This document shows positions 466 to 26,641 of a stretch of 36,098 nt of DNA, piece by piece. The notes beneath the pieces were generated by a model. The model saw only the letters and a program-made list of their open reading frames with translations, made no database searches and was not told where the DNA came from. The position numbers and the translations under genes are program-made. The DNA lies in IMG/VR virus record IMGVR_UViG_3300039098_000026, positions 1 through 36,098 of that record; one strand, given 5' to 3'. Every line of letters starts with the position of its first letter. Within the stretch, counting starts at the first letter, position 1. This DNA comes from a virus.

Positions 466-810
466 ATGAAAACATACCTAAAACAAAAATGCTGGACTTG
501 CACAAAATGCACCAATGCGTTTGAATGCGACTGGGTAATGGAAATAACCGAAAAAGAGTTCCCACAACCTAAGAGCTTCCAAACACTTGATAAAGATGGT
601 TATGTTATTGACTGTGAAAATTACGAGTATGACACATTATTTGACCGATACATCACAAGGTTAAAAGCAAGTCTAATTCTAAATATGAGTTACAGAAGTT
701 TTTTAAGACTTTACAACATACCACATATGAAGAAGACGCTTGACAAACAACTGGAAGAAAAAGGATTTAAAATAAAACCAAATAATTGGCATATAAGTGT
801 AACAGATTAG
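466..810 (+). CDS. Small cysteine-rich phage protein, function unknown
   Basis: The gene encodes 114 residues and starts three bases after the GIY-YIG stop, in the same operon. The N-terminus has closely spaced cysteines (C10, C13, C16, C22) that could bind zinc. The C-terminal half is basic and predicted helical (about residues 60-105). I do not recognise the family. Its last codons overlap the promoter repeats of the small RNA at 835, so coding and regulatory sequence share the same DNA there. Confidence 0.75.
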   Translation: MKTYLKQKCWTCTKCTNAFECDWVMEITEKEFPQPKSFQTLDKDGYVIDCENYEYDTLFDRYITRLKASLILNMSYRSFLRLYNIPHMKKTLDKQLEEKGFKIKPNNWHISVTD

Positions 811-828
811 CATAAAGTGTGTTATACT
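786..828 (+). promoter_or_regulatory. Promoter with paired TTGGCATATAAGTG repeats (small RNA / mid operon)
   Basis: TTGGCATATAAGTG (786-799) is followed by TTAGCATAAAGTGTG (807-821), then an extended -10 box TGT-TATACT (820-828). The two repeat cores are 21 bp apart, two helical turns. The same arrangement precedes the -10 boxes at 28481 and 29551 on the minus strand. A -35 box is poor, which fits activator dependence. The expected start site is about 835, exactly where the structured RNA begins. Confidence 0.7.
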
Positions 829-834
829 ATTAAT

Positions 835-930
835 AGGTCTGACAACAATGAGCTATTAACTGCAACGGCAGATTAATATAAAACTAACAAACAAGCACTG
901 TCAGAAGTCAGACCCTGATGGTGCTTTTTG
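835..930 (+). ncRNA. Small structured RNA with pseudoknot and intrinsic terminator
   Basis: The expected transcript is about 95 nt. Its 5' end GGTCTGAC (836-843) is perfectly complementary to GTCAGACC (907-914), which forms the loop of the terminator hairpin, so a loop-closing pseudoknot is predicted. An internal hairpin pairs 854-863 with 868-878 (ten pairs, one bulged A). The 3' end is a 12-bp terminator stem followed by a T run. The 810-951 gap has no ORF. It could be a free small RNA or a terminator-controlled leader for the gene at 951. I do not recognise it as a known riboswitch class. Confidence 0.65.
893..929 (+). terminator. Intrinsic terminator of the small RNA
   Basis: AAGCACTGTCAG (893-904) pairs with CTGATGGTGCTT (915-926), twelve pairs including two G:T, and is followed by a run of T. 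The loop 905-914 is the segment complementary to the RNA 5' end. Confidence 0.85.
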
Positions 931-1541: not shown

Positions 1542-2282
1542 ATGGCATATAGAATTATACAACCAACATTTTGGACTGATGCAAAAGTAGTAGATGACTT
1601 CACACCAGAAGACAAATACTTTATGCTTTACTGTTTAACCAATGAACACACAAACATAATTGGTTGCTATGAAGTAAGCAAAAAACAAATGTCTAATGGT
1701 ACTGGTTACAACAAAGACACGATAGACCGACTTATTGAAAGACTACAAAACACTCACGAAGTACTAGAATATGACAACAAAACAAAAGAGATGTTTGTTA
1801 GTAACTGGCATAAATATAACTGGACTAAAAGCCCTAAACTTGATAGTGCTATTTTAAAGCAATTAGAGAAAGTTAAGAGTGAAAAATTTAGATTAGATTT
1901 AATAGATTTATATAATAATAGAGATACGGTATGTATACCCTATGCATACCATAGGGATACAACTGTTACTGTTACTGTTTCTACTACTGTTACTGATATT
2001 GTTAATTACTTAAATGAAATACTAGGAACTAAGTATAACGCTAGTGCCAATAGTACTAAAACACCTATACAGGCTAGACTTAATGAGGGCTACAAGCTAG
2101 AAGACTTTAAAAAAGTAATTGACAAAAAGTATAATGAGTGGTTAGACACCGAGTGGGCTAAGTTTTTAAGACCATCTACATTATTTGGAAATAAGTTTGA
2201 AGGTTACTTAAACCAGAAGAGCGGTAAAAAAGTAAAAACAACACTTTCACAAGAAGAGTCTAAGGCATTTGGAGGAAAATAA
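1542..2282 (+). CDS. DnaD-like replication initiator (winged helix plus phage C-terminal domain)
   Basis: This 246-residue protein has the usual layout of Firmicutes-phage replisome organisers. The N-terminal winged-helix region (about 1-105) opens with MAYRIIQPTFWTD and contains VSNWHKYNW. A Thr/Val-rich linker follows (about 135-150), then a C-terminal domain (about 150-228) ending FGNKFEGYLNQ that resembles the conserved phage C-terminus Phg_2220_C. It should bind the phage origin and recruit the helicase loader encoded next (stop and start overlap by one base). The linker coding sequence contains ACTGTT repeats and palindromes that look like the origin. Family placement is by motif memory. 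Confidence 0.85.
   Translation: MAYRIIQPTFWTDAKVVDDFTPEDKYFMLYCLTNEHTNIIGCYEVSKKQMSNGTGYNKDTIDRLIERLQNTHEVLEYDNKTKEMFVSNWHKYNWTKSPKLDSAILKQLEKVKSEKFRLDLIDLYNNRDTVCIPYAYHRDTTVTVTVSTTVTDIVNYLNEILGTKYNASANSTKTPIQARLNEGYKLEDFKKVIDKKYNEWLDTEWAKFLRPSTLFGNKFEGYLNQKSGKKVKTTLSQEESKAFGGK
1928..2003. other. Candidate replication origin inside the initiator gene
   Basis: The palindromes GGTATGTATACC (near 1929-1940) and CCCTATG-CATAC-CATAGGG (near 1938-1956) are followed by tandem hexamers from 1962. ACTGTT occurs at 1962, 1968, 1974 and 1986, with degenerate copies ACTGAT at 1992 and ATTGTT at 1998. The hexamers encode a low-complexity Thr-Val linker, so protein constraint is weak there. Many phages of Gram-positive hosts keep their origin iterons within the initiator gene; assigning it here is inference. 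Confidence 0.6.
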
Positions 2283-3172
2283 TGGATAAACTTTATAACA
2301 ATACAATGAAGTATGATGATTTATACGATAAAAAACTAGAACAACAACTAAAATTCATAAATAAAGATGAACACATTGTTGATAATATGATTTATTGTAA
2401 GAATTGTGATACACAAAGGTTGTGGATAAGCCCAAACAAACAAATTGTAACAAGGGTTTTGTGTGAATGTCAGTCAGAAGAACTGGAAAGAGAAGAAATT
2501 GATAAAGAGTTAGAAAAAGTCAAGGCATATTCTAAGCTCCTTAAAGACCGCTCTAAGCTAGGTAAAAGATTTTATAATGTAACACTCGGAAAATCTAAGG
2601 AAACCGCTGACAAGCTAAGTGACAGCCTTAAAACAGCACATGAGGGTGCCGAAACATATGTTAATAACTGGGATAGTAATTTAAAGCAAGGAAAAGGGTT
2701 TTATTATTGGGGTGAAAACGGTGTTGGTAAAACACACCTAGTGGCTGGCTTATGTAATTTTCTAATAGATAAGTATTATGCCAAAGTATTATTCACATCA
2801 ACTGGCGATATCTTAAAAGAAATTAGGGCAAGCTTTGATAATCCAAATAAAACAGAACAGCAAGTATTTAACTTTTATGTAAGTTTAGATTTATTAGTAA
2901 TTGATGACATAGGAAAACAAAGATTTAAATTAAAAGGCGAAGATACACACGCGCAGGAAAAACTTATTGAAATTGTCGAGGCTAGATACAAGGACAAAAA
3001 ACCAACTGGGCTAACTTCAAACCATTCACTAAGACAATTAGTAGATGAAAAAGGGTTAGATAAAGCAGTTGCAGGTAGAATTTATGAATGTTCAAAAGAT
3101 TTTACGCTAGAAATTAAGTCACCAAACATTAGAATTATGACCGATGAAGAAAAATGGTGGCAAAAAGATTAG
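2282..3172 (+). CDS. dnaC: DnaC/DnaI-like AAA+ helicase loader
   Basis: The protein is 296 residues. An N-terminal zinc finger is suggested by C39, C42, C61 and C63. The Walker A motif is GENGVGKT (about 144-151), Walker B is LLVIDD (204-209), and a sensor-type LTSNHS and an arginine-finger-like GRIYE lie near the C-terminus. The family loads the replicative helicase onto origin DNA. The gene overlaps the upstream initiator by one base, the standard initiator-loader pair. The phage encodes no helicase or DNA polymerase, so it must recruit the host's. Confidence 0.92.
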   Translation: MDKLYNNTMKYDDLYDKKLEQQLKFINKDEHIVDNMIYCKNCDTQRLWISPNKQIVTRVLCECQSEELEREEIDKELEKVKAYSKLLKDRSKLGKRFYNVTLGKSKETADKLSDSLKTAHEGAETYVNNWDSNLKQGKGFYYWGENGVGKTHLVAGLCNFLIDKYYAKVLFTSTGDILKEIRASFDNPNKTEQQVFNFYVSLDLLVIDDIGKQRFKLKGEDTHAQEKLIEIVEARYKDKKPTGLTSNHSLRQLVDEKGLDKAVAGRIYECSKDFTLEIKSPNIRIMTDEEKWWQKD

Positions 3173-5897: not shown

Positions 5898-7003
5898 ACG
5901 AACTAGAACTACTAAAAAAATGTAAACCAGTGGCTGACTTACCACCGATAAAAGGAAAGTGGGATAAACTGTGGGAAACATTAACTGAAAATGAGCAACT
6001 ATTGTTTCACACTGGCGACAAGCTAAGGCAGTTTTACAAAAATCACGGCTACAAACTAGACCTAATACAAAACGCAAACCCTACAAGCCAAACAGTGACT
6101 AAAAGTGAGCGAATTGTAGATGGTAAGATTGTAACTGTAAAATCAATTAGAACAACAAGCCGAACACAAAAATTGCCACCAGTTGATTACATTAAAGAGA
6201 TAAGAAAAGCACTACAAGAAATGACACCGCCAACATACAAAGTAATTAAACACGATAAAAACAGCGATGGCGTAGACCTAGTAATACCGATAGCAGACTT
6301 TCACTATGGTAAAAGGGGTTTAGACTATACAAGTTTAAAAGCTGAAAGGTTGCTGTTTAAATTAGTTGATGGTGTGTTATCAAAAACAAGCCACTTAAAA
6401 ATAAACAATATTTATGTATTTGTTCTAGGCGACTTTCTACACTATGACACGATGGGCAAAACAACAACAAAAGGCACACCGCAAGACACGGACTTACAAC
6501 CTAACGAGATGGATAGAAATGCAATTAGGATACTTGGTAGCTTACTATTAAAACTATCAAAGTACGCCAAAGTACAACTAAGCCAAATAGCTGGTAACCA
6601 CGATGAGCGAACATCAATGCTTTTAAGGTATGCAATGGGCTTCGCTTTTAGAGATAACGCAAACATTAAAGTTACAACTGGCAGTCCTTACAGAGAATAC
6701 ATCAAAGTTAATAAAACCGTATTTGCTATCACACACGACATCAAACTAGACAAAGCAAGGGTTAGTATGAACACGGAAGCCAAACAGCTTAACGGCAAGA
6801 ATGAACGCTTTATATGGCTATTAGGACACTTACACAATGCAAGCCAAGTTGGTGATTATGGTGATATGGAGATATGGCGACAACCTGCATTTTGTGGGGA
6901 AGACCATTGGACTAATAAAGAGGGTTACAAATCAACAAAATTTTTACAATGTTATGTGGTAAATGCAGACAATGAGATTGATACATTTACAGCAAAGGAG
7001 TAG
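5894..7003 (+). CDS. Calcineurin-like metallophosphoesterase
   Basis: The 369-residue protein carries a full set of metallophosphoesterase motifs: D135-x-H137 (ADFHYG), GD180FLHYD, GNHDE (234-238), H281 (ITHD) and GHLH (311-314). Two metals should be bound in the usual phosphodiesterase site. The first ~125 residues are helical and lack the motifs; they form an additional N-terminal domain with a possible DNA- or partner-binding role. It follows the replication genes in the same operon. Likely a nuclease or nucleotide phosphodiesterase; the substrate cannot be read from sequence. Confidence 0.9.
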   Translation: MNELELLKKCKPVADLPPIKGKWDKLWETLTENEQLLFHTGDKLRQFYKNHGYKLDLIQNANPTSQTVTKSERIVDGKIVTVKSIRTTSRTQKLPPVDYIKEIRKALQEMTPPTYKVIKHDKNSDGVDLVIPIADFHYGKRGLDYTSLKAERLLFKLVDGVLSKTSHLKINNIYVFVLGDFLHYDTMGKTTTKGTPQDTDLQPNEMDRNAIRILGSLLLKLSKYAKVQLSQIAGNHDERTSMLLRYAMGFAFRDNANIKVTTGSPYREYIKVNKTVFAITHDIKLDKARVSMNTEAKQLNGKNERFIWLLGHLHNASQVGDYGDMEIWRQPAFCGEDHWTNKEGYKSTKFLQCYVVNADNEIDTFTAKE

Positions 7004-11797: not shown

Positions 11798-11873
11798 AGT
11801 CTGGGTTTACCTTTTCTTCACCATTCTCATCTTGTAATATTAATGGCTCTAATTCTTCATATTGTTCACACAT
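11784..11873 (-). CDS. Very small acidic ORF
   Basis: ATG at 11873 to TAA at 11784 encodes 29 residues, strongly acidic (MCEQYEELEPLILQDENG). A GAGGAG site precedes it, and it overlaps both neighbours by 8 and 14 bases, which suggests a coupling peptide or a real tiny protein. Confidence 0.45.
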   Translation of the reverse strand: MCEQYEELEPLILQDENGEEKVNPDYEND

Positions 11874-12060
11874 TTCGTAACTCCTCACCAAGAGCTTGAA
11901 CATCCTTTCCTGCATTTCCTGTTAGCGTGCGTTCTTCTCCAAGTTCATCTAATTCTATAACTGTAAATGGCATTAACTTTTCTTGTATAAGGTCTCCAAA
12001 TTCATTAAACATTCTTTGTTTAAACTCTAAATATAGAGCTTCTTTTTCTTCATATGTCAT
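11866..12060 (-). CDS. Small acidic protein after the tail fibre
   Basis: The gene encodes 64 residues, acidic and helical at the N-terminus, ending VQALGEELRNV. It follows the large fibre gene with one base between them. Position resembles the small proteins that follow fibre genes in many siphovirus-type modules, but there is no clear sequence match. Confidence 0.62.
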   Translation of the reverse strand: MTYEEKEALYLEFKQRMFNEFGDLIQEKLMPFTVIELDELGEERTLTGNAGKDVQALGEELRNV

Positions 12061-25096: not shown

Positions 25097-26641
25097 TTAT
25101 ACAAGCTCTTCACCTCGTATATAATACGCTATTCCTAACGCCATTACTTTATCATCGTGTTTGCCTGATATTGCCTCAAGCTTAATGTTACCACTCTTCT
25201 TCTTATTCCTTATAAATGTGAGCATTTGCCTCATTGTGTCCTTGTCATTCAACAGCTCTATATGGTTGTTTACTATACTCTTTAATCCGCTTATAAATAA
25301 CGGTCTTGTAATCGTGGTAGTTTTAACACCATATTGCATTGTAACCCCTGTTCCAGCCGTATCTTCTTTTCTTCTTGCAAACTGATTTGGATAGTCTAAT
25401 TTTTCAAGCTGTTTTGTTGGGTATGTTGAAAAGTTGTTTTCTATACCTATACAAGCCCAGTCATACATTTTGCCTAAGCAGTACATTTGTTCTACATAGT
25501 AATCTTCATCATTTAAGTGTGTGAACGTGAATACTTGCTTACCTGTTGTAAGGTGTATTCCCTGTGCCTCAAAACTATCACTACCCTCTCCTGCGGTGTC
25601 ACCACCTATCACATAGCTCTCTCCATTCTTAAATTCCTCATATATTTTAATATATCCATCTGAACTCTCTACAAATTGTATGTTGTTTATGCCAATATTA
25701 CCATTGCTATAAAACTCTTTCTCATACACAAACTCCCCTCTTCTAATAGGCTTGGGTGCTTTTTGTATTCTGTCAATTATGATGTCTTTATCAAATACAC
25801 AATCTCCTGTACTTAAAAACGCCTCTTCTGGTGTTATTGGATACTCTTGTCTAAATTGTCTAATATCACCCTTCGCCCTATTCTTAATAGCCCACCTACG
25901 CCACTCTAATTGGTCATTGGTCAGGTTATGTTGTTTTTTTAGATTATCTTCTATATCTGTTAATTTAAACCCTGTATATGTTTTGGAATATTCATCCATC
26001 TCACACCACGGTACAAATATGAATATAAAGTCATTGTCACCCATCATAGCATCATCACACAGGTCTTTAAAGTAGTTAAACCCATTGGCTGTACTTTCTA
26101 TGAATATCATTGTGTTTGGCTCATCTGGAACTGCTTGCATTAACCCAAGCATCTGTTCATCTATGTTATCACCCCAGAATGCCACCTCTGACAAATGGAG
26201 GTTGTTCATTGTTTCGCCCCTCAGTATATCCTTACCACCTGCCGTTTCAACCACTATATAGCTGTTAATCTTATCAAACACTAATTCTCTGTCATTTGAG
26301 TACTGTTTGTGTGGTTTAATCTCTTCAGGTAACCCCTCATAGAATGACTTACCCATATTAAATAATGCCTTAGTGCTTGCCTTTTTATGTGCTATTACCG
26401 CTGACCTTGTATTAGGTGTGGTGAGTGTTATAGCAGTAGTTAGTGCCTGCCCCTGTGTTGAGCCTCCTACCTGCCTACTCTTTAGCTCTATTATCCTTAT
26501 AGGCTTGCCCTGCTCGTGTTGTGACTTAATTGCCTCATACACCCTCTGCTGTGCTGTATTAAATACTAATGGCACAATGTTTGACTTCTTATCACGTATC
26601 TTAAAGTACTTCTCTGTATATGCTTGTATATTGATTGCCAT
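25097..26641 (-). CDS. terL: Terminase large subunit
   Basis: This 514-residue packaging motor has an ATPase domain with an atypical Walker A (KSRQVGGST, 54-62), a Walker-B-like segment with acidic end (NNLHLSEVAF, 146-155) and the coupling motif ESTANG (182-187). The C-terminal nuclease domain has D348 (VIGGDTAGEGSD), a central glutamate (GIENNF) and a late aspartate (KHDDKVMALGIAYY). Length and motifs are complete. It is separated from terS by a 500-bp non-coding stretch, which is unusual for this gene pair. Confidence 0.93.
   Translation of the reverse strand: MAINIQAYTEKYFKIRDKKSNIVPLVFNTAQQRVYEAIKSQHEQGKPIRIIELKSRQVGGSTQGQALTTAITLTTPNTRSAVIAHKKASTKALFNMGKSFYEGLPEEIKPHKQYSNDRELVFDKINSYIVVETAGGKDILRGETMNNLHLSEVAFWGDNIDEQMLGLMQAVPDEPNTMIFIESTANGFNYFKDLCDDAMMGDNDFIFIFVPWCEMDEYSKTYTGFKLTDIEDNLKKQHNLTNDQLEWRRWAIKNRAKGDIRQFRQEYPITPEEAFLSTGDCVFDKDIIIDRIQKAPKPIRRGEFVYEKEFYSNGNIGINNIQFVESSDGYIKIYEEFKNGESYVIGGDTAGEGSDSFEAQGIHLTTGKQVFTFTHLNDEDYYVEQMYCLGKMYDWACIGIENNFSTYPTKQLEKLDYPNQFARRKEDTAGTGVTMQYGVKTTTITRPLFISGLKSIVNNHIELLNDKDTMRQMLTFIRNKKKSGNIKLEAISGKHDDKVMALGIAYYIRGEELV

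Follow-up and report, generated by a model that had tools for sequence, protein, structure and literature searches.

Covarying pairing between an upstream octamer and a terminator loop in leader RNAs of phage replication operons: a possible kissing-loop attenuator

Introduction

The guanidine-IV riboswitch (GGAM-1/mepA) is found upstream of several unrelated genes and acts at transcription termination, where a kissing loop hinders completion of the terminator and the two are proposed to compete through a short linker (PMC7736828, PMC11611296). A comparable layout is considered here for an RNA element lying in the 140-base gap between an open reading frame (ORF) ending at position 810 and another starting at 951 of the IMG/VR record IMGVR_UViG_3300039098_000026, an uncultivated virus whose 36,098 bases were analysed as a whole (hereafter the window). 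Whereas the ligand pocket of guanidine-IV is made of loop nucleotides under high conservation, and this riboswitch precedes guanidine-related genes in bacteria, the loop octamers of the family to which we assign this element covary freely (17 types), a conserved ligand pocket is not seen and the genes downstream are phage replication, HNH and Ant genes.

The HMP-PP (thiS) riboswitch, a terminator-embedded aptamer, also has a specialised terminator hairpin with its loop in a possible pseudoknot, and there too the terminator competes with the folded state, but its ligand-binding loop is conserved, its genes are thiamin genes and its helices are different (PMC6478431). Among phage RNAs, HK022 put is likewise a leader of similar size close to an early promoter, with two hairpins and an effect on expression of the operon downstream; it binds the zinc-binding domain of the polymerase β′ subunit, and a kissing pair with a terminator loop has not been reported for it (PMC9378689). 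In the present family, unlike put, the second hairpin is itself the terminator. The layout would work like that of guanidine-IV or of a terminator-embedded riboswitch, a likeness of layout and not a demonstrated membership in any such class.

Phage leaders can also give rise to small RNAs. The P4 CI RNA and the P1 C4 antisense RNAs exert control in trans through short complementary stretches, the P4 CI RNA pairing in its own leader. In the family described here, by contrast, both partners of the conserved pairing belong to a single element, and the phage DNA searched gave no target outside it (see below).

Pairing and fold in the window

The preliminary description of this locus, made from the sequence alone, had noted that the octamer GGTCTGAC (K, 836–843), near the RNA 5′ end, exactly complements a terminator loop at 907–914. 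The complementarity is present, and the pair covaries in relatives. The terminator hairpin P2 (893–926) has the 12-bp stem announced in that description (893–904/915–926), a 10-nt loop AAGTCAGACC (905–914) and a run of five U residues (925–929). The complementary octamer K′, GTCAGACC, fills the last eight positions of the loop (907–914), flush with the 3′ arm of the stem and with two A's on its 5′ side. The RNA folds with −25.2 kcal/mol (z = −2.8 against dinucleotide shuffles), and an exact complement of a loop octamer was found in the upstream 59 nt in 155 of 200,000 shuffles. By itself this shuffle statistic is weak evidence, as the window has many terminators; the comparative evidence given below is decisive.

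Two hairpins can be drawn between the promoter and P2. The internal one that had been reported before is indeed there (TATTAACTGC-AACG-GCAG(A)TTAATA, 854–863/868–878, with one bulged A), but it is specific to the window and has no counterpart in the family alignment. Apart from its 4-bp tip (860–863/868–871), it excludes a second possible hairpin, P1, in which TTAATAG (830–836) pairs over 7 bp with CTATTAA (853–859), the latter overlapping the 5′ strand of the internal hairpin. P1, which appears in the minimum free-energy fold of an RNA beginning at 829, would enclose GGTCTGAC in the loop of a 5′ hairpin, the arrangement seen in the relatives. Its 5′ strand belongs to the transcript only if the window RNA starts at or before about 830. 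A promoter-like box, as previously claimed, is present in the form of an extended −10 element (TGTTATACT, 820–828, with TATACT at 823–828) supported by a consensus scan; taken alone, this sigma70-like box predicts a start near 835, which would cut P1.

A family of relatives with a covarying kissing helix

A first scan of IMG/VR for the pattern GGTCTGAC...GTCAGACC returned about 33 terminator-bearing loci in addition to chance hits. Most of these loci share one architecture: a Bacteroidota −7 promoter TATATTTG located 9–14 nt ahead of K, a 5-bp hairpin P1 whose loop begins with K, a linker, the terminator P2 with a loop of the form A-N-K′, and a long U-run. In the family K sits in the P1 loop, and the interaction is a kissing loop; the pairing of the 5′ region with the terminator loop that had been proposed is retained, and the idea of a bare 5′ end is not.

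An unbiased scan of viral contigs was then made with a related P2 stem alone, leaving all ten loop bases free. Among the distinct hits whose inner stem is good and which have a U-run and sufficient upstream sequence, a fully paired octamer (8/8) lies 39–45 nt upstream in every case (71 of 71 hairpins, with 17 different octamers). Hits that have no stem or no U-run do not show the paired octamer, and loops matched against the upstream region of another class pair in only 5.5% of the control comparisons. An alignment of 48 diverse members (A1) was also built; membership required the complement, so that the free-loop scan is the unbiased test of the K·K′ pair. Across A1, 100% of the kissing-helix cells are paired, six of the eight pairs show changes on both sides, and P1 and both parts of P2 covary as well, at values reached by none of 500 shuffles. 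The check that had been suggested for 836–843/907–914 in homologous phages thus gives a pairing that is kept while its letters change. On these comparisons the K·K′ pair is real, beyond chance.

About 150 distinct members were collected (159 in the expanded set, of which some seven are probably false). Nearly all come from Bacteroidota-type phages; Cellulophaga phage phi18:3 and Tenacibaculum phage Gundel_1 are among the carriers. In the loops, near-invariant positions are limited to the AC/GT ends and a few A's. The terminator stem often, although not universally, contains a conserved internal loop TGAA/GGAT (tandem G·A), which is possibly a contact site for a protein or for the polymerase. 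In some members this loop, noted in A1 and in L045, L054, L316 and L319, is strand-swapped (GGA(T/C/G)/TGAA). Most phage records carry a single element; three carry two or three, and within each of these three phages K differs between the copies (all seven elements). Contig L398 has, besides a typical element, a second, divergent one on the minus strand near 6950, with the octamer GCATCGGA and its own promoter.

Position ahead of replication genes

In 77 of 77 distinct elements a co-directional ORF with an ATG start codon begins 3–103 nt after the U-run (median 21 bases in the expanded set). The term 'free-standing', applied to the window RNA in the preliminary description, does not fit relatives that are so consistently leaders placed directly before a gene. 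The ORFs after the element belong to many unrelated families, and the replication module of the phage is their usual setting; the products are replication initiators, DnaD-like loaders, primosomal proteins, primase/helicase, helicase, ParB-like, Ant and HNH proteins, and small proteins of no assigned function. Since the terminator stands between promoter and gene, with about 20 bases of room, the gene should be expressed only by readthrough, which is a structural argument for attenuation. A role in the control of the operon from 951 is the best supported of the options previously put forward for the window.

Does the window element belong to the family?

A covariance model (R1) was derived from A1, with both the window and the kissing pair left out. 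It finds positions 830–928 of the window, P2 included, with 32.9 bits (E = 3.9e-5), the next match in the window reaching 15.3 bits. Several points are independent of this score: the two A's and the closing G–C pair that surround the corresponding eight bases, a possible P1 (830–836/853–859), the promoter-proximal position and the synteny with phage phi18:3, whose gene order (RNA, small ORF, DnaD-like loader) matches that of the window. Two features of the family are found again here: K exactly complements the final eight of the ten nucleotides in the terminator loop, and the leader stands ahead of a replication module (the ORF at 951, followed by DnaD-like and DnaC-like loaders).

Other observations qualify this assignment. 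The shared K, which was also the search key, contributes part of the 32.9 bits; the TGAA/GGAT internal loop with its tandem G·A was not found in the window stem, which has tandem G·U/U·G wobbles instead; the window linker is longer than that of the relatives and carries its own hairpin; the promoter is sigma70-like, unlike the Bacteroidota −7 type; and P1 may be missing if the RNA starts at 835. Taking both sides together, we regard the window element, on sequence grounds, as a divergent member of the family.

A kissing-loop attenuator and its alternatives

We lean towards reading the element as a kissing-loop transcription attenuator at the 5′ end of a phage replication operon, a leader RNA that probably controls whether transcription enters the replication genes. 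Transcription from the promoter would give a leader of about 95 nt ending at an intrinsic terminator some 20 nt ahead of the first gene, so that the operon would be reached only by a polymerase that reads through. As the terminator loop emerges from RNA polymerase, K′ would pair with K close to the start of the RNA (within the P1 loop, in the family), and the kissing complex would form round the top of the terminator hairpin. The short linker of the Bacteroidota form would prevent P1, the kissing helix and a fully zipped P2 from existing together in a single straight stack; complete termination and kissing would then compete, and their balance, tipped by something such as a factor, an ion or the speed of the polymerase, would set the flow of polymerase into the replication genes.

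Sequence comparison establishes the helices with their covariation, the position as a leader and the U-run. As long as the 3′ arm of the terminator is not yet made, the K·K′ helix alone is the nested consensus fold in 47 of the 48 A1 sequences. K′ mostly ends 17–19 bases ahead of the U-run in the family, and should therefore leave the polymerase at about the time when termination is decided. As for geometry, the linker between P1 and P2 has a median of 13 nt, whereas the coexistence of P1, K·K′ and the whole of P2 would give a stack of about 32 bp, and in two thirds of the members even its maximum length is smaller than the stack; kissing and complete termination should thus strain each other. 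The guanidine-IV riboswitch offers a precedent for such a hindrance (PMC11611296, PMC7736828). We infer attenuation, its sign (kissing as antiterminator) and the existence of a trigger.

Other points speak against this interpretation. The strain argument presupposes that P1 is intact and that the coaxial stack is straight. A loop that is always 10 nt long (two bases plus K′) fits a coexistence of the kissing helix with the terminator, in which case kissing could instead help termination. A conserved antiterminator helix was looked for by covariation and none was found; a helix between the linker and P2 can be drawn in many single sequences but lacks support in the consensus, and was rejected. 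A negative correlation of the linker with P1 or stack length was also discounted, because a longer P1 uses linker bases by definition. For the window, the sign of the regulation is less certain, since its linker is longer and its P1 depends on the start site.

The alternative that survives best, although we consider it rather unlikely, is that kissing aids termination or stabilises the product of about 95 nt, which would then be a compact small RNA, or a 5′ cap structure with a sequestered 5′ end, while the operon would be served by leak-through. The constant loop looks built for K·K′ and P2 together, K lies at the predicted 5′ end of the window RNA and the window linker is long enough for coexistence, but the linker of the Bacteroidota form is short relative to the stack and a gene always follows the element. 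Moreover, a signal of targets in trans is absent: in 471 kb of DNA from the same phages, their own K and K′ octamers occur elsewhere 6 times versus 4.5 expected, which is no enrichment. The same count leaves the decoy and the trans-acting RNA suggested in the preliminary description without positive support.

We find it improbable that the element is a trans antisense or immunity RNA, in which terminated leaders would use K/K′ to bind nascent leaders of their own type and provide type-specific feedback or control of superinfection, K being the address of the type. Two copies could pair in trans, since K and K′ are complementary, and K differs between closely similar elements as well as between the copies of each of the three multi-copy phages. 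Yet intramolecular pairing normally beats pairing in trans, the same K occurs in unrelated phages, and differing K within a phage also fits drift of paired positions, the chance of a difference being high given the K classes. Least probable of all is a polymerase-binding antiterminator like HK022 put, a leader that would stay on RNA polymerase and let it read through its own and later terminators: the promoter-proximal position, the two hairpins, the phage early or replication operon with its diverse downstream genes and a TGAA/GGAT loop that could be a contact site would suit it, but put RNAs have two stem-loops in about 70 nt (PMC9378689), the second hairpin of the present family carries a U-run in all members kept, and Rfam gives no match.

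Returning to the attenuator, a further-reaching form of it, to which we give distinctly less credence, is that the internal kissing loop itself is the switch of the replication operon, set by polymerase kinetics or by a phage or host factor and not by a metabolite; K would be an exchangeable address by which the several switches of one phage are kept apart. The elements would then represent an undescribed and widespread class of leaders.

The window locus

All features of the leader are on the plus strand. The consensus scan gives GTAACA at 799 as a candidate −35 element, and a second promoter candidate with TTGGCA at 786 and TAGCAT at 808–813. The first ORF of the operon (951–1235, 94 residues, no family match) has its start codon about 20 nt past the end of the U-run and a Shine–Dalgarno-like AAAGGAG upstream. 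It is followed on the same strand by a second small ORF (1248–1541, 97 residues, no match), by a DnaD-like helicase loader or replisome organizer (1542–2282; PHROG 1701 and 6251, Pfam Phg_2220_C) and by a DnaC-like helicase loader (2282–3172; PHROG 50). The ribosome-binding sites (AAAGGAG) look Firmicutes-like and the DnaD-like protein is nearest to proteins of Psychrobacillus and Streptococcus phages. The large terminase (25097–26641, minus strand) has only distant relatives, the best, of Roseobacter phage CRP-7, at about 32% identity, which places the window phage far from cultivated phages. A short way upstream of the element, a frame entering from before the window start (1–462) shows a GIY-YIG-like motif (YIGLS) and matches only PHROG 19106 (unknown function); it possibly encodes a homing endonuclease.

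Database searches and similar RNAs

Searches of Rfam 15 with all models (the inclusion of the guanidine-IV model being unchecked) gave no match for the window region at E up to 5 or for five relatives at E up to 1, and none at the gathering thresholds. Nothing was returned by blastn of the window element against annotated phages, and no relatives were reached through the 94-residue ORF. R1 had no match in 395 genomes of the Bacteroidota phylum, a search of limited sensitivity (10 candidates scored per genome, no positive control), nor in four phages with related replication genes that were scanned for further Firmicutes examples. A literature search, mostly without subscription papers, yielded no description of the family, which is apparently undescribed on the basis of these comparisons.

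The GGTCTGAC pattern scan of bacterial genome contigs gave, in the loci examined, only chance hits and unrelated palindromic repeats or repeats resembling miniature inverted-repeat transposable elements. The latter, with GGTCTGAC...AAGTCAGACC ends and no relation to the leader RNA, are in Flexibacter/Cytophagales and Saprospiraceae assemblies (L201, L249, L257, L265, L283, L297, L308; L217, L223, L255, L279, L296).

Similar layouts were seen in a few other places. At L134 (1377–1456), a single example before an HNH gene, a 5′ AACCTGAA pairs with the terminator loop TTCAGGTT; a search for more Firmicutes examples through its K returned the same phage only. At L136 (near 2000–2085), another single example, before a methyltransferase gene, a 5′ heptamer pairs with the terminator loop (CTCCTAC/GTAGGAG, inside an 8-bp P1). 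Lactococcal P335 phages (L509, which is TP901-1, NC_002747.1, about 11804–11928 on the minus strand, and L510–L515) have a conserved promoter and a terminated RNA of about 90 nt, antisense to the flanking early genes, the 5′ end of which (TGACC) complements the terminator loop (TTGGTCA) by 5–7 bp. It was not merged with the family, its pair being short and without covariation and its position antisense between genes.

Conclusions

Phages must time the replication of their DNA, and the switching of early operons in Bacteroidota phages is almost uncharted. The RNA described here, which is compact, covaries unusually cleanly and is not in Rfam 15, stands at the head of replication operons in the phages of what are probably two groups of bacteria. 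In it, the kissing-loop and terminator layout of a riboswitch recurs with no visible ligand pocket, which makes the family a direct test case for whether loop–loop pairing alone can tune intrinsic termination. As two cultivated phages, phi18:3 and Gundel_1, carry the element, this can be tested now.
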